NCBI RefSeq assembly: GCF_030162935.1
Contig: NZ_JASAUZ010000001.1
Coordinates: 310,001 to 374,000, forward strand
Length of the DNA stretch: 64,000 nucleotides
Reading direction: 5' to 3'
DNA from: Comamonas halotolerans
GTDB lineage: Bacteria; Pseudomonadota; Gammaproteobacteria; Burkholderiales; Burkholderiaceae_C
Made by a program: the position numbers and the translations under genes. Of the stretch, positions 7,522-48,819 are shown one piece after another. The first letter of the stretch is position 1. Each line of letters starts with the position of its first letter. The notes under the pieces are model-generated. The model made no database searches and was not told the DNA's origin. It saw only the letters and a list, made by a program, of their open reading frames with translations.

Positions 7522-8646
7522 ATGACTGAAGCTACGCACATTCCATCGCCCCATATGCAACAAGCGCTTGACTTTGCCCGTCAGGCGCTTTTTCTATCCA
7601 ACCCCAATCCACGCGTCGGCTGCGTGCTGGTGTCTTCTACAGGCGTTGTCATTGGTCAGGGTTTCACCCAGCAGGCTGGTGGGCCTCATGCCGAAGTCAT
7701 GGCGCTGCGTGATGCACAGGCTCGCGGTCATGACACGCGTGGGGCGACAGCTTATGTCACGCTTGAGCCTTGTTCCCACACTGGCCGTACCGGCCCCTGT
7801 TGCAACGCGTTGATAGACGCCGGAATTGCGAAAGTTGTGGGAGCGATTACAGATCCGAACCCGCAGGTGGCGGGACAAGGTTTTGCCAAATTGCGCGCCG
7901 CAGGTGTTGAAGTTGCAATGGACGATGCAGCTGGAGTGGCTTCGCGCGAGTTGAATATTGGTTTTTTCAGCCGCATGGTGCGCGGCACACCATGGGTGCG
8001 CATGAAGGCCGCAACTTCGCTGGATGGAGTGACGGCTTTGCACAATGGCCAGAGCCAGTGGATCACGGGCGCAGCAGCGCGTGCAGACGGTCATGCCTGG
8101 CGGGCACGTGCGTGCGCCATTCTGACCGGTATTGGCACGATTTTGGAAGATAACCCGCGCTTGAATGTGCGTGAGATAGACACTCCACGCCAACCCAAGA
8201 TTGTGGTGGTCGATAGCAAGCTGGACATGCCACTGGATGCCCATGTGCTTCAAGCTGTCAACGGCTGCATCATCTATACCAGCAGCACCAGCACCTCTAA
8301 AGCCGCAGCGCTGCAAGCCTTGGGAGCCACCGTCGTTGTACTGCCTAACGCGCAGGGCAAAGTCGATCTCGCGGCCATGCTGCGCGATTTAGGCCAGCGT
8401 GGCACCAACGAGCTGCATGTGGAGGCAGGCTTCAAACTCAATGGATCTTTCCTGCGTGAGGGTTTGGTGGATGAGCTGCTTCTGTATCTGGCCCCCAAGC
8501 TGCTAGGTGCGGGCGCCATGGGAATGGCCAACTTTGGCCCCTTGAATGCACTGTCTCAAGCCACTCCCTTGCAATGGCAAGATATCCAGCGCATAGGCGA
8601 TGATCTGCGTGTGCTGGCCCGCATTGCTGGGCGCGATCAGTTTTAG
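7522..8646 (+). CDS. ribD: Bifunctional diaminohydroxyphosphoribosylaminopyrimidine deaminase / 5-amino-6-(5-phosphoribosylamino)uracil reductase RibD
   Basis: Catalyses two consecutive cytosolic steps of riboflavin synthesis. The N-terminal deaminase domain (about residues 8-150) has the zinc ligands His56-Ala-Glu58 and Cys84/Cys93 in the PCSHTGRTGPC motif. The C-terminal reductase domain (about 155-370) begins RPGTPWVRMKAATSLDG-like and contains HVEAGFKLNGSFL. The frame extends upstream to a TTG at 7495, but the ATG at 7522 is preferred and gives 374 residues, close to the family norm. It follows pilE by 30 bases; no FMN riboswitch precedes it, so it may depend on read-through from the pil operon or a local promoter. 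Confidence 0.92.
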   Translation: MTEATHIPSPHMQQALDFARQALFLSNPNPRVGCVLVSSTGVVIGQGFTQQAGGPHAEVMALRDAQARGHDTRGATAYVTLEPCSHTGRTGPCCNALIDAGIAKVVGAITDPNPQVAGQGFAKLRAAGVEVAMDDAAGVASRELNIGFFSRMVRGTPWVRMKAATSLDGVTALHNGQSQWITGAAARADGHAWRARACAILTGIGTILEDNPRLNVREIDTPRQPKIVVVDSKLDMPLDAHVLQAVNGCIIYTSSTSTSKAAALQALGATVVVLPNAQGKVDLAAMLRDLGQRGTNELHVEAGFKLNGSFLREGLVDELLLYLAPKLLGAGAMGMANFGPLNALSQATPLQWQDIQRIGDDLRVLARIAGRDQF

Positions 8647-8717
8647 CCGCATGCCGCGAAGCAAACCCTCTGGCGTCTGACACGGGGGCCATCATTGCAT
8701 CGCTATATCTCTAAGCC

Positions 8718-10505
8718 ATGTCACAACATCCGCAGCAACCTCATCGCATTTTGGCGCGCCACCATTGGCTGTTCGCATGCCTGTGTGCTGCTGCCCTGCT
8801 CCTGAGCGCTTGCGGCAGCTTGCCACCCATGCCTCCGCGCACTGCCAGTACAGCACTTGCGTCTCCGCAAAGTACGGCCTTGGGCCAAATGGTGCAAGCC
8901 CAGCGTCTAGCCGCGGGCACTGCTTACAACTCCGGGTTTACTTTGCTCGGTGGCGCTGATTCTGCATTCTCCAGCCGCCTCGCACTGGTGCAAGCGGCAA
9001 CGCAGACTTTGGATCTGCAGTACTACGCCATCCACGCCGATCCCAGTACCGCACGGTTGCTTGAAGCCGTGGCGCATGCGGCACAGCGTGGTGTACGAGT
9101 ACGTGTCCTGTTGGATGACTTTCATGGTGCAGGCAAAAATGCGCAAGTCATGTGCCTGGCTTTTGTGCCTGGCATTGAGATGCGCATGTTCAACCCTCTG
9201 ACTGGGCCACGCAGCTCAACCATCATGCGAGCCTTGTCGACGTTGACCGATTTCCAGCGCGCCCAGCAGCGCATGCACAACAAGCTTTTTATTGCAGACA
9301 ACACGATCGGCATAACGGGTGGGCGCAATCTGGGCGATGCCTACTTTGACGCACTTGATAGCGACAACTTTATCGACCTTGACATCATGGCCGCAGGCCA
9401 TGTGGTGCGCCAGCTTTCCTCCAGCTTTGACCGCTACTGGAATGACGCGCGCGCCTACCCTGTCAGCGCACTCGTATCAGAGCAAGCCTTGCTCGAGATG
9501 CGCAGTACTGCCAACAAGCTGGCAACACAGACAGAATCGCAGCAAATTCAGACTGCCATGAACGGCAGCAAGACAGCACATTTGGAACCGATGGATTTAC
9601 AAGCGGTTGAATGGATTTGGGCCCCAGCCTTGGTATTGGCCGACGCACCAGAAAAAATTCCCGCACCGCCCGAGGACACACAGAGCGTTGCGACATCCAA
9701 TGAAATGACTGAGGCAATAGCAGAGCAGCCCTCTGCACCTGAAGTACTAACGCTGGCTCCCAGCCTCTCTTCTGGCTTGAGCAACGCCGCAAAAAGGAAG
9801 CCATCAGCCAACCGCCAAACCCTGCGTGAAGTGATACATCCGGTCTCTGGCCAAGAAAACGTAGTTAGCGGCTTGCTGGCTTTGATTGATCAGGCCAGCA
9901 CCGAAGTACTCATCGTATCGCCCTACTTTGTTCCAGGCGACGATATGAAAGAAGCTTTTGCACGCGCCCGCGAGCGCGGGATTCGCCTGCGCATTCTGAC
10001 CAATTCCCTGGCCTCCAACGATGCACCGTTGGCACATGCAGGCTACGCACGCCACCGCAAGGATTTGCTGGCGCAAGGCATTGAACTGTATGAATTACGC
10101 AGCTTGCAAGACGGCAAGGCTGACACGGGAACCCTGCGTAATACTGCCGGGCACATCTCAGGCTCACAAGGTGGTTCGCGGGCTATGCTGCATTCCAAGA
10201 TGCTGGTGCTTGATCACAAGCTCACCGTAGTCGGCTCCATGAATCTGGATCTGCGCTCACAGTTGCAAAACACTGAAATTGCGCTATTGATTGCCTCAAG
10301 ACAGCTGGCGCAAGAGGCTACCGAAAACATCGAGGCCAGTCTGAACAAAGCGGCGTGGCTGGTAGAGGACACCCCCGAAGGACTGGTATGGCGTGCGCCT
10401 GAAGGCAGCGACTGGGGAGATCAAACCAGTGAACCTGATGCCAGCCTGCCACTGCGCATGATGATTCGCATCATCGGCCCTCTGGCTCCTGACCATTTGC
10501 TTTGA
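8718..10505 (+). CDS. Phospholipase D-family cardiolipin synthase (ClsC-like lipoprotein)
   Basis: A 595-residue protein with a lipoprotein signal (LLLSACGS, lipid-modified Cys about residue 32) and two HKD phosphodiesterase motifs: His187-x-Lys189-x4-Asp194 (HNKLFIADN) and His492-x-Lys494-x4-Asp499 (HSKMLVLDH). This architecture matches ClsC-type cardiolipin synthases, which transfer phosphatidyl groups at the membrane. Family members are usually about 470-530 residues. The excess length here is a low-complexity stretch rich in Ala, Pro, Glu and Ser between the two catalytic halves (about residues 305-370). It could alternatively act on other phosphodiester substrates. It is convergent with dusC. 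Confidence 0.8.
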   Translation: MSQHPQQPHRILARHHWLFACLCAAALLLSACGSLPPMPPRTASTALASPQSTALGQMVQAQRLAAGTAYNSGFTLLGGADSAFSSRLALVQAATQTLDLQYYAIHADPSTARLLEAVAHAAQRGVRVRVLLDDFHGAGKNAQVMCLAFVPGIEMRMFNPLTGPRSSTIMRALSTLTDFQRAQQRMHNKLFIADNTIGITGGRNLGDAYFDALDSDNFIDLDIMAAGHVVRQLSSSFDRYWNDARAYPVSALVSEQALLEMRSTANKLATQTESQQIQTAMNGSKTAHLEPMDLQAVEWIWAPALVLADAPEKIPAPPEDTQSVATSNEMTEAIAEQPSAPEVLTLAPSLSSGLSNAAKRKPSANRQTLREVIHPVSGQENVVSGLLALIDQASTEVLIVSPYFVPGDDMKEAFARARERGIRLRILTNSLASNDAPLAHAGYARHRKDLLAQGIELYELRSLQDGKADTGTLRNTAGHISGSQGGSRAMLHSKMLVLDHKLTVVGSMNLDLRSQLQNTEIALLIASRQLAQEATENIEASLNKAAWLVEDTPEGLVWRAPEGSDWGDQTSEPDASLPLRMMIRIIGPLAPDHLL

Positions 10506-39354: not shown

Positions 39355-41295
39355 ATGGGCAAAATCATCGGTATTGACCTGGGCACAACCAACAGCTGCG
39401 TTGCCATTATGGAAGGCAACACAACTCGCGTGATCGAAAACAGCGAAGGTGCACGCACCACGCCTTCGATCATTGCCTACCAGGAAGACGGCGAAATCTT
39501 GGTTGGTGCATCGGCCAAGCGCCAGGCAGTCACCAACCCCAAGAACACCATCTACGCAGCCAAGCGTCTGATCGGCCGCAAGTTTGATGAGAAGGAAGTG
39601 CAAAAGGACATCGACCTGATGCCTTTTACCATCACCAAGGCTGACAACGGTGACGCCTGGGTTGAAGTGCGTGGTCAAAAGCTGGCGCCTCCCCAAATCT
39701 CTGCCGAGGTACTGCGCAAGATGAAGAAGACCGCCGAGGACTTCCTGGGCGAGGCTGTGACTGAAGCCGTGATCACCGTGCCTGCATACTTCAACGACGC
39801 ACAGCGCCAAGCCACCAAGGACGCGGGCCGCATCGCTGGGCTGGAAGTCAAGCGCATCATCAACGAGCCTACTGCTGCTGCTCTGGCTTTTGGCCTGGAC
39901 AAGGTGGGCAAGGGCGACCGCAAGATTGCCGTGTATGACCTGGGTGGCGGCACCTTTGACGTGTCCATCATCGAAATTGCTGATGTGGATGGCGAAAAGC
40001 AGTTTGAAGTGCTGTCAACCAACGGCGACACGTTCCTGGGCGGCGAAGACTTCGACCAGCGCATCATTGACTACATCATTGCCGAGTTCAAGAAAGAACA
40101 AGGCGTGGATCTGTCCAAGGACGTGCTGGCTCTGCAACGCCTGAAGGAAGCGGCGGAAAAGGCCAAGATCGAGCTGTCCAACTCAGCACAGACCGACGTC
40201 AACCTGCCTTACATCACCGCTGATGCAACTGGCCCCAAGCACCTGAACATCAAGCTGACCCGCGCCAAGCTGGAAAGCCTGGTGGAAGACCTGATCGAGC
40301 GCACCATCGCTCCATGCCGCACTGCCATCAAGGACGCAGGCATCTCTGTATCTGACATTCAGGACGTGATCCTGGTGGGTGGTATGAGCCGCATGCCCAA
40401 GGTGCAAGAGAAGGTCAAGGAATTCTTCGGCAAGGATCCTCGCAAGGACGTGAACCCTGACGAAGCCGTGGCCGTCGGTGCTGCCGTGCAAGGCCAGGTT
40501 CTGGCAGGCGACCGCTCTGACGTGCTGCTGCTGGACGTGACACCTCTGTCTCTGGGTATCGAAACCCTGGGCGGCGTCATGACCAAGATGATCACCAAGA
40601 ACACCACGATTCCCACGAAGTTCGCACAGACCTTCTCCACTGCAGACGACAACCAGCCTGCCGTGACTATCAAGGTGTTCCAGGGCGAACGTGAAATGGC
40701 TTCGGGCAACAAGGCACTGGGTGAATTCAATCTGGAAGGCATTCCAGCCGCTCCACGTGGCGTGCCTCAGATCGAAGTGACCTTTGACATTGACGCCAAC
40801 GGCATCTTGAACGTTTCTGCCAAGGACAAGGGTACTGGCAAGGAAAACAAGATCACCATCAAGGCCAACTCCGGTTTGTCGGAAGAGGAAATCCAGCAAA
40901 TGGTCAAGGATGCGGAACTGAACGCAGCCGACGACAAGAAGAAGCTGGAGCTGGTGCAGGCCAAGAACCAGGGCGAAGCCGCTGTTCACAGCATCAAGAA
41001 GAGCCTGGGTGAGCACGGTGACAAGCTGGAAGCAGCCGAAAAGGAGGCTATTGAAGCTGCCGTGAAGGAGTTGGAAGAAGCTTTGAAGACCGAAGACAAG
41101 GACGCCATCGAAGCCAAGACCACTGCCTTGATGACTGCCAGCCAAAAGCTGGGCGAGAAGGTGTATGCCGAATCTCAAGCAGCTGCTGCAGGCGGTGCTG
41201 GTGCCGAGGCTGCAGCAGACGCAGCGCAGGCCAAGCCCGCTGGTGCGAGCGACGACGACATCGTGGATGCCGAAGTCAAGGAAGTGAAGAAGTAA
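39355..41295 (+). CDS. dnaK: Chaperone DnaK (Hsp70)
   Basis: 646 residues. ATPase domain motifs are [55 protein letters not shown] and [11 protein letters not shown]; the linker [17 protein letters not shown] leads to the substrate domain and a helical lid. It ends in an Ala/Gly-rich region and the acidic [14 protein letters not shown] tail typical of proteobacterial DnaK. Works with DnaJ, GrpE and ClpB. Confidence 0.99.
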
Positions 41296-41392: not shown

Positions 41393-42532
41393 ATGTCCAA
41401 ACGCGACTTTTACGAAGTCCTCGGCGTGACAAAGAACGCCTCGGACGAAGAATTGAAAAAAGCCTACCGCAAGTTGGCAATGAAATACCACCCTGACCGA
41501 AATCAGGGTGAGAAATCCAAGGAAGCCGAAGAGCGTTTCAAGGAGGTCAAAGAGGCCTACGAGATGCTCTCGGACAGCCAAAAACGCGCGGCCTATGACC
41601 AATATGGCCACGCTGGTGTGGACCCGAACAATGGCATGGGCGGCGGCGCAGGCTTTGGCGGTGGCGGTTTTGCAGAAGCCTTTGGCGATATCTTTGGCGA
41701 CATGTTCGGCGGTGGCCGTGCTGGTGGTGCACGAGGAGGCCGTCAGGTCTACCGTGGCAACGACCTGAGCTACTCCATGGAAATCACGCTGGAGGAAGCC
41801 GCCAAGGGCAAGGATGCGCAGATTCGCATTCCCAGCTGGGAGGCATGCGACACCTGTCACGGCAGCGGCGCCAAGCCTGGCACCAGCCCCAAGACTTGTA
41901 CTACCTGCGGTGGTCAGGGATCGGTTCAGATGCGCCAGGGCTTTTTCAGCGTGCAGCAAACCTGCCCGCATTGCCGCGGCACTGGCAAGATCATTCCTGA
42001 GCCCTGCACAGCCTGCAGCGGACAAGGCAAGATCAAGCGCCAAAAGACGCTGGAGGTGAAGATTCCAGCAGGCATTGATGACGGCATGCGCATTCGCTCC
42101 ACCGGCAACGGTGAGCCAGGCATGAATGGAGGCCCTCCGGGTGACCTGTACATCGAAATTCGCATCAAGGAACACGACATCTTCGAGCGTGAAGGCGATG
42201 ACCTGCACTGCCAGGTGCCGGTGAGCTTCATCACTGCAGCTTTGGGGGGCGAGATCGAGGTGCCGACACTGCAGGGCAAAGCTGCGATCGATATTCCCGA
42301 AGGTACACAGGCCGGAAAACAGTTCCGCCTGCGCGGCAAGGGTATCAAGGGTGTGCGCTCCAGCTATCCCGGCGACCTGTACTGTCACATCGTGGTGGAA
42401 ACACCGGTGAAACTCACCGAATACCAACGCAAGTTGCTGCGTGAACTGGAAGAGTCACTGAAAAAAGGCGGTGCCAAGCATTCCCCCAATGGTGAAAGCT
42501 GGACAGACAAGCTCAAGCGCTTTTTCAGCTAA
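41393..42532 (+). CDS. dnaJ: Chaperone DnaJ (Hsp40)
   Basis: 379 residues, class A. J-domain 1-70 with the HPD motif in [21 protein letters not shown] (positions about 31-51), a Gly/Phe-rich stretch, a zinc domain with four CxxCxGxG repeats ([32 protein letters not shown]) and the C-terminal substrate domains. It stimulates DnaK ATPase. About 97 bases after dnaK; a terminator follows. Confidence 0.99.
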
Positions 42533-42851: not shown

Positions 42852-45266
42852 ATGTCAAACCTTAGCCCGAATGCAAGCGGCCCTGTGTGGCCGCGCATTT
42901 TTGGCGCAGTACTCACCCTGATTGGCCTGGTACTGTTGATTGGCGGCATCCGCCTCATGTCCCTCGGCGGATCCTGGTACTACGTGTTCGCCGGTGCTGC
43001 CACTCTCATTTCCGGTGTCTTGCTGGTCCGTGCCAAAGCAGAAGGCGGCCTGCTGTATTTGGTCGTCGTGATTGGCACGGCCATTTGGTCACTGGCGGAA
43101 GTGGGCACCACATTCTGGGGCTTGGTACCCCGCTTGGCTCCCGTACTGGTTCTGGGCGTGATCGCGGCTCTGGCCATGCGCGCTTTGCGCCCTAATGCAA
43201 AGAACATCGCACTTCCTGCGGTGGCCATACAGGCTGTGGTGTTAGCCGCGGGTGCGGCTTCCCTGACAACACCGCACAATGTCATTGAAAACACGGCCAG
43301 AAAGGGCGTGGATATCGTCAATGACCTCGGCGCCGTGACCGATGCCAAAAGCGAACACAACAGCTGGAAATACTACGGCGGCGATGCCGGCAACCAGCGC
43401 TTTGCAGCGTTTGACCAGATCAATACCAACAACGTCAATGAACTGGAAGTAGCCTGGACCTATCGTACCGGCGCACAGACTGGCGGCGGCAACGAAGACC
43501 AGAACACGCCCATCCAGGTGGGCGATTCCTTGTACCTGTGCACCCCCCAGAACAAGGTGATTGCATTGAACGCCGAAACCGGCGAAGAAAAGTGGGTGTT
43601 TGACCCCAAGACCAACGAAAACAAGTGGTGGAGCCGCTGCCGTGGCGTGGCCTACTATGAAGTGCCTGCGTTCCAGACCGCTAAGAAGACCAACACTGCA
43701 GCCAAGCCTGCACAGTGCGAAGCACGCATCATCACCACCGACAAGGATGGCCGCCTGTGGGCGCTGGATGCACAAACTGGCGCGGTGTGCCAAAACTTTG
43801 GCGACACTGGCAAGGGCTATACCGACCTAAGCGTGGGCATGGGCGAGTACCAGCAGTTCTACTACATGCCCACTTCACAACCCCTGGTGGCTGGTGACCG
43901 CGTGATCATCGGTGGATGGGTCTGGGATGGTCGCCAAACCGACCAGCCATCCGGTGTCGTGCGAGCCTATAGCCTGGTTGACGGTTCGCTCGACTGGGCA
44001 TGGGATTTGGGCAATGCCGAAATCACCAAGCTGCCCCCTGAAGGCCAGACCTACACCCGTGGTACCCCCAATTTCTGGTCCAACGGTTCCTATGACCCTG
44101 AACTGGACTTGATCTATCTGCCCTTGGGCAACGCCACGCCGGACTTCTGGGGCGCACACCGTACGCCCAAGATGAACGAGTACGCCACCACCATCGTGGC
44201 CATCCAGGGCAAGTCCGGCAAAGAAGCCTGGAAGTTCCAGACCCTGTACATGGACACCTGGGACTACGACAACGGCACGCCTCCCACACTGATGGATTTG
44301 CCTGACGGCAACGGCGGTGTGAACAAGGCGTTGGTGGCAGCCACCAAGACCCACCAGTTGTTCCTGCTGGACCGTACCAACGGCAAGCCGTTGGCTGAAG
44401 TCAAGGACCTCCCCGCACCCAAGGAATTCCAGGAAGGCGATGCCACGTCTGACGTTCAGCCTTGGTCGGTCGGCATGCCCCAGGTGGCACCGATGGACAT
44501 GCAGGAAAAAGACATGTGGGGCGCCACCATGTTTGACCAGCTGTACTGCCGCATTCAGTATAAGAAGCTGCGTTACGACGGCCCCTACACCAAGCTGACC
44601 ACCGAACCCACTTTGATCTACCCCGGTTACTACGGCGGCTTCAACTGGGGTGGTCATGCGTTTGACCCACGTACCAATATGTACATCGTCAACGACATGC
44701 GCATGCCGCAGATTGGCTTCTTGGCACCCCAGGACACCGCAGCTGACCAGCTGGCGAAGCTGAAGGCCGGAGATGGCGGCCACAAGTCTGGCTGGGCGAC
44801 GCACTTGCAAGTGGGCACACCTTACCAGTCCATCCGTGGTGCCTTCAACTCCTTCCTGGGCTTGCCTTGCCATCAGCCTTCGTGGGGCAACCTGACCGCG
44901 ATTGATATGAACACCAGGCAAATCGCCTGGCAAGTTCCGCTGGGAACCGTTGCTGGCTCAAAGATGGGCGGCGTCACAGTGGATGTACCCATGCCCATAG
45001 GCATGCCTTCACTGGCTGGCCCGATTGCCACGGCCGGTGGTCTGACCTTCTTTGCCGGCTCCATGGACCGCTATTTCCGAGCCTTCGACAACAAGACAGG
45101 CCAGGAAGTGTGGAAACACCGCATGCCTGTGGGCGCCCAAGCTGCTCCCATGTCTTACCTGTCACCCGAATCGGGGCGCCAGTTTGTAGTGATCTCTGCA
45201 GGTGGCGCACGCATGACTACGGAAAAGGGGGACTATGTGATCGCCTACGCTTTGCCGAAGAAGTAA
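42852..45266 (+). CDS. Membrane-bound PQQ-dependent dehydrogenase, glucose/quinate/shikimate family
   Basis: An 804-residue quinoprotein from the ATG at 42852. Residues 15-137 form five membrane helices that bind ubiquinone; the periplasmic part is an eight-bladed propeller beginning SWKYYGGDAGNQRFAAFDQI. The presumed catalytic Asp471 (DTWDYD) and Lys499 (AATKTHQLFLLD) match Asp466 and Lys493 of E. coli glucose dehydrogenase in context and spacing. PQQ and calcium are required cofactors. Substrate may be glucose, another sugar, or quinate/shikimate; Comamonas relatives rarely use sugars, which favours a cyclitol or alternative polyol. A PqqU-like receptor gene follows. No pqq biosynthesis genes are in the window. 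Confidence 0.9.
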   Translation: MSNLSPNASGPVWPRIFGAVLTLIGLVLLIGGIRLMSLGGSWYYVFAGAATLISGVLLVRAKAEGGLLYLVVVIGTAIWSLAEVGTTFWGLVPRLAPVLVLGVIAALAMRALRPNAKNIALPAVAIQAVVLAAGAASLTTPHNVIENTARKGVDIVNDLGAVTDAKSEHNSWKYYGGDAGNQRFAAFDQINTNNVNELEVAWTYRTGAQTGGGNEDQNTPIQVGDSLYLCTPQNKVIALNAETGEEKWVFDPKTNENKWWSRCRGVAYYEVPAFQTAKKTNTAAKPAQCEARIITTDKDGRLWALDAQTGAVCQNFGDTGKGYTDLSVGMGEYQQFYYMPTSQPLVAGDRVIIGGWVWDGRQTDQPSGVVRAYSLVDGSLDWAWDLGNAEITKLPPEGQTYTRGTPNFWSNGSYDPELDLIYLPLGNATPDFWGAHRTPKMNEYATTIVAIQGKSGKEAWKFQTLYMDTWDYDNGTPPTLMDLPDGNGGVNKALVAATKTHQLFLLDRTNGKPLAEVKDLPAPKEFQEGDATSDVQPWSVGMPQVAPMDMQEKDMWGATMFDQLYCRIQYKKLRYDGPYTKLTTEPTLIYPGYYGGFNWGGHAFDPRTNMYIVNDMRMPQIGFLAPQDTAADQLAKLKAGDGGHKSGWATHLQVGTPYQSIRGAFNSFLGLPCHQPSWGNLTAIDMNTRQIAWQVPLGTVAGSKMGGVTVDVPMPIGMPSLAGPIATAGGLTFFAGSMDRYFRAFDNKTGQEVWKHRMPVGAQAAPMSYLSPESGRQFVVISAGGARMTTEKGDYVIAYALPKK

Positions 45267-45277
45267 AGCAAACGCAC

Positions 45278-45304
45278 AAAGGGTGGCCAAAGGCCACCCT
45301 TTTT
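45278..45304 (+). terminator. Terminator of the PQQ dehydrogenase gene
   Basis: AAAGGGTGGCC / GGCCACCCTTT with an AAA loop and following T residues, 11 bases after the stop. It separates the dehydrogenase from the receptor gene, so the pair need not be one transcript. Confidence 0.88.
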
Positions 45305-45440
45305 CACAAGCCCTGTGCACTGTCCCAAAACCACCCCCACCACATGCGTGCCCGATGGCTTGGGGACAGATTGCTGAGCTAGCCACACACTCTGCCAACC
45401 AACATTGAATTTTTCTGCTGTTTTCATGGAAGTTCACACC

Positions 45441-47570
45441 ATGCCTGCTTTCACCCCGTCCGTTCTAAGCCACGCTGTCACTGCACTGCTTGGTGGCCTG
45501 ATGCTGACGGCCCACGCACAAACCACACCACCCACCTTGGACGCAATCGAGGTACGCTCAGCCGCAGGCAACTACAGCCTGCAGACGCTGCCCACCTCCG
45601 CAACTGTGCTGGACGGTGAGCAGGTGCGTGATCAACAAATGCAGGTCAACCTCTCCGAAGGTTTGGCGGGCGTGCCAGGCTTGCAAGTCAAAAACCGCCA
45701 GAACTATGCACAAGACCTGCAATTGTCCATACGCGGCTATGGCGCTCGCTCCACCTTTGGTGTGCGTGGTGTACGCCTGTATGTGGACGGTATTCCCGCC
45801 ACCATGCCTGATGGCCAGGGTTCACTCTCGCATATCGACATTGCCAGCATGGAGCGCGTTGAAGTGCTGCGCGGCCCCTACTCGGCGTTGTATGGCAACT
45901 CGGCAGGCGGCGTGCTCAGCGTGTTTACCGAAGCACCGGAAGGCCGCCCATTTGTAGAAAGTGGCGTGAACTTTGGCAGCGATGGTCAAAAACGCTTTGC
46001 AGCCAAGGCAGGCGGACAAACTGCTCAGGGCCTGAGCTATGTGGTCAGTGCCAGCCGTTTCCTGGCCGATGGCTACCGCGACCATAGTGCTGCCGATCGT
46101 AATACGGCCAACGCCAAGCTCAGCACCGCCATTGGTGATGACGCGCGCCTGACTGTCACCGCCAACACGATGAAGTCGGATGCGCAGGATCCCCAGGGCC
46201 TGACATGGGAACAGTACCGCGCCAGACCTCGTCAATCCTCCGGCGTGGCAGAAACATTCAACACCCGCAAGTCGCTGGAGCAGACACAAATTGGTGCCAC
46301 TTACGAACGTCGCCTGAACGCCAATCACAGCATGGCATTGACAGCTTATGCTGGTCATCGCTCCATGGAGCAGTACCAATCGATTCCATTGAAGAATCCT
46401 GCTACAGGCTACGCTATTCAAGAAAATGCCAAGCATGCAGGCGGTGTGATCGACATGTCGCGTGACTATGCAGGCCTGGATGCTCGCTGGACCGGCAAGT
46501 TTGAAGATGCCCCCATCCCCGTGACAGTGACTGCAGGCCTGGCTCTGGACTATGTGCGGGAAGACCGCCAAGGCTATAAGAACTATGTCGGTGACGTGAA
46601 TGCACCTACCGCCACCGGAGTCAAAGGTGAGTTGAAGCGCGATGAAAAAAACACCATCCGCAATGTAGACCCCTATATCCAGGCCACGTGGAAGCTGAGC
46701 CCTACCTGGACGCTGGATACCGGCATGCGCTATAGCCGTGTCAAATTCGAATCCGATGACAGCTATATCCGAGCAGGCAACCCTGATGACTCCGGCAATG
46801 TCACCCACAGCAAGGCCCTGCCCGTGGTTGCGCTGTCGCACCAGCTCACACCCAACGATACGGTGTACGCCAGTGCAGGTCGAGGCTTCGAGACCCCTAC
46901 ATTTGCCGAGCTTTCATACCGCCCGGACTTCACCGGCGGCTTGAATCTTGCGCTGCAACCCAGCGTCAGCACCCAGTACGAGTTGGGCTATCGCCAACGC
47001 CTCACAGGCGACATCAAAGGCATGTGGAGCACTGCGGTGTTCTATTCGAGCACCAAGGACGAAATCGTCAGCGATGCCTCACTGGGTGGCCGCACCGCCT
47101 ACCGTAATGCAGGCAAGACACACCGCTTCGGAGCAGAGCTGCAAGCCGACATCCAGCTCTCGCGCCAATGGGACGTGCAAGCTGCCTACACATACTTGAA
47201 CGCCAAATTCCGCGAGGGTGATACTGCAGACAATATGCTGCCCGGCCTGTCCAAACACAACGCATTTGTGGGCGTGAACTTTCGCCCCGCAGCGCAATGG
47301 CGCATGGGCCTTTCGGCGCAGCACGCCAGCAAAGTCTTTGTCAATGATGACAACACTGCCGCAGCCCCCGGCTTCACGATTGCATCAGCGAGTGTGGGCT
47401 ACACCAAAGACCTGGGAGCCTGGACGCTCAACGCCTTTGCTCGTGTTGACAACCTGTTCGATCGCCAGTATATAGGTTCGGCCATCGTCAATGATGGCAA
47501 CGGACGTTTTTATGAATCCGCGCCAGGACGCAATTGGAGCACCGGCGTGAATCTGCGCTACAACTTCTAA
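45441..47570 (+). CDS. pqqU: TonB-dependent outer-membrane receptor, PqqU/YncD-like (probable PQQ importer)
   Basis: A 709-residue receptor from the ATG at 45441 (GGAAG upstream), with a signal peptide ending TAHA (26 residues), a TonB box region LDAIEVRS, a plug domain and a 22-strand barrel ending in LRYNF with terminal Phe. The plug contains VPGLQVKNRQNYAQDLQLSI and RLYVDGIPATMPDGQGSLSH. From memory these are nearly identical to E. coli YncD, now known as the PQQ transporter PqqU; the barrel segments GRGFETPT, GGRTAYRNAGKT and RVDNLFDRQYIGSAIVNDGN also agree. Adjacent placement to a PQQ enzyme supports PQQ uptake. Confidence 0.88.
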   Translation: MPAFTPSVLSHAVTALLGGLMLTAHAQTTPPTLDAIEVRSAAGNYSLQTLPTSATVLDGEQVRDQQMQVNLSEGLAGVPGLQVKNRQNYAQDLQLSIRGYGARSTFGVRGVRLYVDGIPATMPDGQGSLSHIDIASMERVEVLRGPYSALYGNSAGGVLSVFTEAPEGRPFVESGVNFGSDGQKRFAAKAGGQTAQGLSYVVSASRFLADGYRDHSAADRNTANAKLSTAIGDDARLTVTANTMKSDAQDPQGLTWEQYRARPRQSSGVAETFNTRKSLEQTQIGATYERRLNANHSMALTAYAGHRSMEQYQSIPLKNPATGYAIQENAKHAGGVIDMSRDYAGLDARWTGKFEDAPIPVTVTAGLALDYVREDRQGYKNYVGDVNAPTATGVKGELKRDEKNTIRNVDPYIQATWKLSPTWTLDTGMRYSRVKFESDDSYIRAGNPDDSGNVTHSKALPVVALSHQLTPNDTVYASAGRGFETPTFAELSYRPDFTGGLNLALQPSVSTQYELGYRQRLTGDIKGMWSTAVFYSSTKDEIVSDASLGGRTAYRNAGKTHRFGAELQADIQLSRQWDVQAAYTYLNAKFREGDTADNMLPGLSKHNAFVGVNFRPAAQWRMGLSAQHASKVFVNDDNTAAAPGFTIASASVGYTKDLGAWTLNAFARVDNLFDRQYIGSAIVNDGNGRFYESAPGRNWSTGVNLRYNF

Positions 47571-47877: not shown

Positions 47878-48819
47878 ATGAAAAATTCCGAACGCAGTTT
47901 TGCACGCCGAATCGACCTAACCTCGCTGCAGCTGTTTGTCGCTGTGTGTGAGCTTGGCAGTATTGGTCGCGCTGCCGAGCGTGAATACATTGCCGCTTCC
48001 GCAGTCAGCAAACGCCTGTCAGATCTGGAAGCCGCCGTAGACACGGCACTCCTGTATCGCCACAGCCGCGGCGTGACTTTGACACCCGCCGGCGAAAGCC
48101 TGTTACATCACGCTCGCAATGTGCTGTACGGACTGGAACGCATGCAAGGCGAGCTCTCGGAATATGCTGATGGTGTACGCGGACATGTCCGCGTGCATGC
48201 CACCATCTCGGCGATTGTGCAGTTCCTGCCAGAGGACTTGGGCGCCTTCAGCAAGGAGCATCCACAGATCAAGATTGACTTGCAGGAACATCTTTCTGCC
48301 GACGTGCTGCAAGCCGTGCAGGAAGGCACGGCTGATATCGGCATCTGCAACATGGGCCAAGCCAATACCAACGGCCTGCAAACCCGCCCTTACCGCACAG
48401 ATAACCTGGTGCTCGTCGTACCTCAAGATCATGAGCTTGCTCAGCGCGACGCCATTTCTTTTGAGGAAGTGCTGGAGTGGGACATCGTAGGCCTGCACGG
48501 TGGCAGCTCCATCAGCCTGGCCATGCGCGGTGCGGCCGCACGCTCTGGCCATCCCTTGCATCAGCGTATTCAGGTCACAAGCCTGGATGCAATGTGCCGC
48601 ATGATTGACAACGGACTGGGTGTTGGCCTGATCCCCGATCGTGCGTTTGAGCTCATGCACGGCGTGGGCAATTTGAAGAGTGTGCCTTTGACTGACAGCT
48701 GGGCGCAACGCACCTTGAGTCTGGTGGCTCGTGACTTTGATGCGCTGCCTGTGACATCGCGTTTGCTGGTGGAACACCTCGGCAAAGGCTGGGTGCCTAC
48801 ATCCAAGGCTGTTGCCTAA
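47878..48819 (+). CDS. LysR-family transcriptional regulator
   Basis: A 313-residue LysR protein. The DNA-binding region is LQLFVAVCELGSIGRAAEREYIAASAVSKRLSDLE (positions 17-51), followed by the linker helix and an effector domain with VRVHATISAIVQFLPEDLGAF, DIGICNMGQANTNGLQTRPY and the C-terminal LGVGLIPDRAF. It precedes leuC on the same strand with a 42-base gap, so it could control the leu genes or the pqqU side; in related Comamonadaceae a LysR gene commonly stands before leuC. Not a typical leucine regulator by sequence alone. Confidence 0.88.
   Translation: MKNSERSFARRIDLTSLQLFVAVCELGSIGRAAEREYIAASAVSKRLSDLEAAVDTALLYRHSRGVTLTPAGESLLHHARNVLYGLERMQGELSEYADGVRGHVRVHATISAIVQFLPEDLGAFSKEHPQIKIDLQEHLSADVLQAVQEGTADIGICNMGQANTNGLQTRPYRTDNLVLVVPQDHELAQRDAISFEEVLEWDIVGLHGGSSISLAMRGAAARSGHPLHQRIQVTSLDAMCRMIDNGLGVGLIPDRAFELMHGVGNLKSVPLTDSWAQRTLSLVARDFDALPVTSRLLVEHLGKGWVPTSKAVA

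Follow-up and report, generated by a model that had tools for sequence, protein, structure and literature searches.

Comamonas halotolerans most likely obtains PQQ by scavenging: it would produce PQQ dehydrogenases as apo-enzymes, make no PQQ of its own, and import the cofactor through a PqqU-type receptor. We give this reading a probability of about 0.87. The case rests on the identity of the genes, the retention of binding residues in the receptor, the lack of recognisable PqqB, PqqC and PqqD, the co-occurrence of receptor and PQQ enzymes among relatives, and a recurrent linkage of their genes; from these we infer ligand, transport, cofactor loading, electron transfer and substrate. In the proposed mechanism, the receptor would bind free external PQQ at low concentration and TonB would drive its passage through the outer membrane. 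Once in the periplasm, PQQ would load onto the membrane dehydrogenase encoded next to the receptor and onto a second one encoded elsewhere, and the loaded enzymes would oxidise a sugar, polyol or similar compound, passing the electrons to ubiquinone.

The features that the analysis draws on are given below, the coordinates being those of the window (the whole 64,000-nucleotide stretch analysed) except where another contig or locus is named.

39355-41295: dnaK, preceding dnaJ, assigned by eye
41393-42532, plus strand: dnaJ, the upstream neighbour, an open reading frame assigned by eye (same order in loci L127, L133, L140, L007, L008 and L013)
42852-45266, plus strand: membrane-bound PQQ-dependent dehydrogenase with Gcd-like architecture, 804 amino acids (ATG at 42852, stop at 45266)
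45278-45304, plus strand: terminator-like hairpin of 11 pairs that leads on its 3' side into a run of five U, of which three are paired
45441-47570, plus strand: PqqU-like TonB-dependent outer-membrane receptor, 709 amino acids (likeliest start ATG 45441)
47878-48819, plus strand: LysR-family regulator (PF00126, PF03466), the downstream neighbour, followed by a leuC-like gene assigned by eye
Contig 12 (G000 C12; L001, L160), 290878-292722: second membrane PQQ dehydrogenase, both Gcd histidines present
L013, 4575-6001, and L140, 6869-7927 on its reverse strand: porin-like gene between dehydrogenase and pqqU in one relative, assigned by eye

The first-pass annotation had read a PQQ dehydrogenase followed by a PqqU-like receptor at this place, and both genes are indeed there, complete and on the plus strand. 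The hairpin between them and the second, unlinked dehydrogenase go beyond what it described.

PQQ synthesis, PQQ enzymes and the receptor among relatives

The source genome (4.05 Mb in 74 contigs, rated 100% complete) has the composition of a PQQ scavenger, with PQQ enzymes and without synthesis genes. It encodes two PQQ dehydrogenases, the window gene and the unlinked one on contig 12 (PF01011). Profile searches covered PqqB, PqqC, PqqD and PqqE, and returned no match to the first three and a single PqqE match at 52.7 bits, where the cut-off is 381; matches below the cut-off occurred in all 14 control genomes too. Since the PqqC model scored above its cut-off in 94 of 399 relatives and the PqqE model in 3 of 53 genomes of the genus, both models work in the family, a control that covers these two. 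The first-pass annotation, having seen no pqq genes in the window, had suggested a cell that makes the apo-enzyme and imports PQQ from other organisms. No pqq operon was found in the full genome either, and the absence from a genome rated complete, together with the PqqU match and its kept residue signature, supports that suggestion.

The second dehydrogenase gene adjoins a weak radical-SAM match and a DUF4130 gene, neighbours that give no hint of a pathway.

Across the 53 genus genomes, receptor and enzymes are nearly always present or absent together. At thresholds of E <= 1e-120 for PqqU and E <= 1e-20 for PQQ enzymes, PqqU was detected in 37 and PQQ enzymes in 38: both in 37, neither in 15, an enzyme alone in one, and the receptor alone in none. 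The lone enzyme-only genome (G429) is rated 59% complete, and one of those with neither (G410) 75%. PqqE scored above its cut-off in three genomes, all of which carry PqqU, leaving 34 of the 37 importer bearers without it; PqqC was searched in 5 of the 53. On a dnaJ tree of the 53 genomes, seven independent pairs differ in PqqU, with the enzymes agreeing in six, going the opposite way in none and showing no difference in one (sign test, p = 0.031), while the reverse test starting from the enzymes gave six pairs and p between 0.031 and 0.0625; both rest on this one gene, with 31 of 50 inner branches well supported.

One of the three genus genomes with an above-cut-off pqqE, G406, holds pqqU, a PQQ dehydrogenase and that pqqE within about 15 kb on a single contig (C2:336049-350536, part of it in L130).

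The association is looser in the family as a whole. Among 399 genomes, 159 have both a PqqU-like match and a PQQ enzyme, 47 the match only, 31 an enzyme only and 162 neither. The 47 genomes with a match and no enzyme are drawn from 206 with a match, and five of them fall among the 84 highest-scoring; the other 79 of these 84 have a PQQ enzyme, 47 of them without PqqC above the cut-off. For genomes with a PQQ enzyme, a PqqU-like match was found in 89 of 100 without PqqC and in 70 of 90 with it, so the importer is common among PQQ makers too.

Linkage of pqqU with PQQ dehydrogenase genes

We surveyed the surroundings of pqqU in 118 loci, 37 from the genus and 81 from elsewhere in the family. The latter are the 80 top-scoring PqqU matches (from 79 genomes, G380 contributing two) plus G105, and are thus neither a random sample nor all 206 genomes. 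Distances were measured between alignment edges rather than gene ends, and the PqqE matches of this survey were disregarded because their reference had been read in the wrong frame of an unoriented locus. In 22 loci pqqU has a PQQ dehydrogenase gene within about 2 kb, in several arrangements and always on the same strand: 11 of the 37 genus loci (10 of the 36 surveyed, and the window, counted from its coordinates) and 11 of the 81 others. None was seen at this distance in the remaining 96, some of which have short flanks. Seventeen further loci have a PQQ dehydrogenase within about 8 kb (16 of 17 on the same strand), most of these enzymes being 36-39% identical to the alcohol-type reference. 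No PQQ dehydrogenase match at all was found in 79 loci (L010 and L011 among them), of which 62 offered 5 kb or more on each side.

The pairing described in the first-pass annotation is therefore conserved in part: three other genus genomes have the same pair at the same site and 11 of 37 genus loci have a PQQ dehydrogenase within about 2 kb, while the other 26 do not. The order dnaK-dnaJ-dehydrogenase-pqqU-lysR-leuC is found in the window and in G403, G411 and G421, the last with an extra porin-like gene (by eye) between dehydrogenase and pqqU. In G425 the dehydrogenase and pqqU occupy another site, with a TetR-like gene (by eye) between them on the opposite strand. One further genome, G402 (L126, about 8450-10410), has the same dnaJ-lysR site with the dehydrogenase missing and a pqqU that lacks part of the plug and no longer has an intact frame; this genome retains another PQQ enzyme on a different contig.

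Both the order and the kind of enzyme vary beyond this site. The membrane dehydrogenase precedes the receptor in the window, G403, G411, G421 and G425, and follows it in G105 (from another genus) and G384. An alcohol-type PQQ dehydrogenase follows the receptor in five other Comamonas genomes (G219, G289, G399, G400 and G428) and precedes it in G380, G035 and G222, and Acidovorax sp. NO-1 has an alcohol dehydrogenase, an aldehyde dehydrogenase and pqqU in that order.

We had first favoured a single operon for the window pair, and set this aside on finding a hairpin in the window and in two relatives. The hairpin starts 12 bases beyond the final base of the dehydrogenase stop codon and folds at -20.3 kcal/mol (z = -4.05, a stability matched by 1 of 200 shuffles), and C. 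avium (L007) and C. kerstersii (L008) carry similar hairpins directly after their dehydrogenase gene. A simple terminator scan did not list it, probably because the T run is partly paired in the stem. Although its U tract counts only five bases, the hairpin suggests that the dehydrogenase and receptor genes are probably separate transcription units. In G105, where pqqU comes first, the gap between the two genes has no obvious hairpin with a U tract by eye. What keeps the two genes adjacent is then probably that the one would serve little purpose without the other, rather than a shared transcript.

The LysR gene was also considered as a regulator of the pair and rejected, as it keeps leuC even in G402, where the dehydrogenase is absent. 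It is 93-96% identical and stands ahead of leuC in four site-sharing relatives (L126, L127, L133 and L140) as it does in the window, and so probably goes with leuC rather than with the dehydrogenase and receptor.

Since the carriers of the dnaJ-leuC site fall in one six-genome clade, this site fits a single inheritance event. The receptor might then import PQQ as proposed while its position beside a dehydrogenase came about by chance, was passed down within one Comamonas clade and carries no functional meaning. The hairpins that separate the genes in three species and the 26 of 37 genus loci with no PQQ dehydrogenase within about 2 kb speak for such an accident. Yet the linkage recurs in varied orders and with both membrane and alcohol-type enzymes, all 22 close pairs share a strand, and the chance expectation lies well below 1 in 118 by a hand estimate that ignores relatedness (about three 4-kb targets per 4.5 Mb). 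We therefore consider a meaningless adjacency unlikely, though it deserves to be kept in mind.

Identity of the receptor and of the linked dehydrogenase

Over its full length the receptor resembles E. coli PqqU more closely than it does other TonB receptors. Its best PDB matches are 6v81 (647 bits) and 9c4o (646 bits), with the next-best receptor at 69 bits, and it scores 805 bits with the NCBIfam PqqU model against 216 with the siderophore receptor model and 99 with the B12 receptor model; the better match to a siderophore or vitamin receptor that would have told against the first-pass annotation was not seen. In the alignment with E. coli PqqU, 317 of 649 columns are identical (49%). The near-identical plug segments that had first suggested the kinship hold up, as NRQNYAQDLQLSIRG and YVDGIPATMPDGQG of the window receptor are identical stretches in the E. 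coli protein.

The 805 bits fall below the curated cut-off of the PqqU model (NF041535, 1200 bits), which is an annotation threshold and not a property of the protein. E. coli reaches this cut-off, and none of the 399 family or 53 genus genomes does, so that model would not name these receptors. We instead base the label PqqU-like on the residue signature given in the main text of Munder et al. (2025, PMC12124388), namely an aromatic residue (Y, F or W) at position 99 with R304 and R365. The window receptor has F107, R308 and R377 at these positions, in a numbering that includes one codon before ATG 45441 (alternative starts lie at 45405 and 45426). The full signature is present in 35 of the 37 genus receptors; of the remaining two, one is broken and the other truncated where its contig ends.

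We compared the 11 PQQ-contact positions named in the same main text, which speaks of twelve residues; N477 was used because N447, which also occurs in that text, falls on a W of E. coli in the alignment. Eight positions are identical, with Q92, K278, R308, Q312, Q314, R377, Y494 and R552 of the window receptor aligning to PqqU Q84, K274, R304, Q308, Q310, R365, Y481 and R536. At the other three, F107 replaces Y99, a change accepted by the authors of PMC12124388 in their main text, Q121 is replaced by S, and N477 by A. The identical positions include K274, R304, R365 and R536, the charged residues whose exchange in E. coli led to slower growth or a longer lag (PMC12124388, main text). N477A, with Q121S or Q121A, is common to an entire group of receptors at 69-81% identity. 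Among named relatives, the window receptor is closest to those of C. avium (80% identity) and C. kerstersii (75%), followed by Acidovorax sp. NO-1 (73%) and others. C. testosteroni ATCC 11996 has a PqqU-like gene as well (L014).

A receptor 68% identical comes from a record titled Pantoea sp. 18069 (G435; L012 and L147) that is placed in the genus of the window, and the name looks wrong.

Because the substrate of a TonB receptor is hard to infer from overall identity (PMC12124388, main text), we weighed a substrate other than free PQQ, such as a PQQ-metal complex, a related quinone or a metal carrier. The altered contacts at Q121 and N477 would suit such a substrate, as would the family genomes that carry a PqqU-like match without a PQQ enzyme. 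Against this, all four charged residues are identical, F at position 99 is an accepted variant, the two altered contacts characterise the whole receptor group, and within the genus the receptor co-occurs with PQQ enzymes. A different substrate is improbable on this balance, and import of free PQQ is the reading that we keep.

The dehydrogenase scores 920 bits with TIGR03074, above the curated cut-off of 832.65, and 684 bits with PF01011 (profile searches), and a hydropathy scan finds several hydrophobic stretches in residues 10-141, ahead of the propeller. It is 37% identical to E. coli Gcd and retains the D466 and K493 positions. Gcd histidines 262 and 775, which presumably have roles in that enzyme, are both absent, the residue opposite 262 depending on the alignment. 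Examined as Gcd proper, by these two histidines and by grouping with E. coli Gcd, the window enzyme showed neither. All six full-length pqqU-linked membrane dehydrogenases lack both histidines, and in a quick tree of 43 of the 46 rows (L105, L058 and L174 were omitted as too short) they form one clade together with L109, a second copy of the G425 row. We had considered glucose or quinate as the substrate from the family name, and dropped both; with the two histidines missing and the enzyme in a separate clade, glucose should not be assumed.

A seventh linked membrane enzyme, in G384 (L174), fits the six imperfectly. It consists of two matching pieces about 440 bases past pqqU, with H at 262 and I at 775, and the open frame around the second piece is just 409 amino acids long.

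That the linked dehydrogenase is a relic or devoid of PQQ chemistry, as the histidines missing from all six full-length enzymes might suggest, is very improbable, given an intact frame, 63-80% identity to the corresponding enzymes of G403, G411, G421 and G425, the kept D466 and K493 positions, the same loss of both histidines in 12 rows outside the linked set (L109 excluded), and an alcohol-type enzyme in L009 that by eye also lacks the GGHG motif.

Significance and comparison with known systems

PqqU-based scavenging is itself already published and known from E. coli and other bacteria (PMC12124388). The main text of that paper describes import of PQQ at nanomolar concentration and finds most PqqU bearers without PQQ synthesis, with synthesis genes in only 23% and PQQ dehydrogenases in 67% (Munder et al., 2025). 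On gene linkage, it considers PqqU together with the PQQ biosynthesis operon, in four Burkholderiales genomes. Our literature search found no report of PqqU beside PQQ dehydrogenase genes, as far as the search covered the main text of PMC12124388, nothing on the gene context of PqqU by a term search of PMC7193533, and no experiment on the window receptor. On PQQ dependence in Comamonas it returned indirect mentions and two relevant titles only: papers of 1986 and 1995 whose titles, in the reference list of PMC4307304, name the C. testosteroni alcohol dehydrogenase as an apoenzyme. The co-occurrence pattern in the genus is thus apparently unreported so far, and the recurrent neighbourhood of pqqU and PQQ dehydrogenase genes seems to be undescribed.

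We tentatively propose, at somewhat less than even odds, a broader picture in which receptor and apo-enzyme form one inheritable scavenging unit. Most PQQ-using Comamonas species would depend on others for PQQ and would gain or lose importer and enzymes together, and one line would keep pqqU beside a clade of dehydrogenases that lack H262 and H775 and oxidise a substrate other than glucose. If so, the linked enzyme would indicate which substrate PQQ is mainly scavenged for. Neighbours of pqqU can serve to identify the enzymes that the collected PQQ supplies. Members of microbial communities share PQQ across species, and a genus whose importer and PQQ enzymes are jointly present or absent, with 34 of 37 importer bearers lacking PqqE above the cut-off, offers a clean natural test of interspecies cofactor dependence. 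Scavenging would also offer an explanation for the apo alcohol dehydrogenase of the old C. testosteroni titles listed in PMC4307304.

The nearest precedent is the set of PqqU scavengers of Munder et al. (2025, PMC12124388), which likewise carry PqqU without PQQ synthesis, whereas the main text there, as far as the search covered it, treats linkage to the biosynthesis operon and not to PQQ dehydrogenase genes. E. coli PqqU (YncD; 6v81, 9c4o) is a full-length TonB receptor match at 49% identity, sharing eight of 11 contacts with F accepted at position 99; the window receptor differs in Q121S and N477A and in scoring 805 bits against the 1200-bit cut-off. It also adjoins a PQQ dehydrogenase gene, whereas about 1.4 Mb separates gcd (138835-141225) from pqqU (1520963-1523065) in E. 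coli K-12, in line with the first-pass annotation. With E. coli Gcd the window enzyme shares the TIGR03074 architecture, that is, a hydrophobic N-terminus and a PQQ propeller with the D466 and K493 positions, but it is 37% identical, has no histidine at 262 or 775 and belongs to a different clade. Within the genus, the comparison is with the quinohaemoprotein alcohol dehydrogenase of C. testosteroni (PDB 1kb0). This is a PQQ enzyme of the kind that adjoins pqqU in other Comamonas, whereas the enzyme beside pqqU in the window is of the membrane type.
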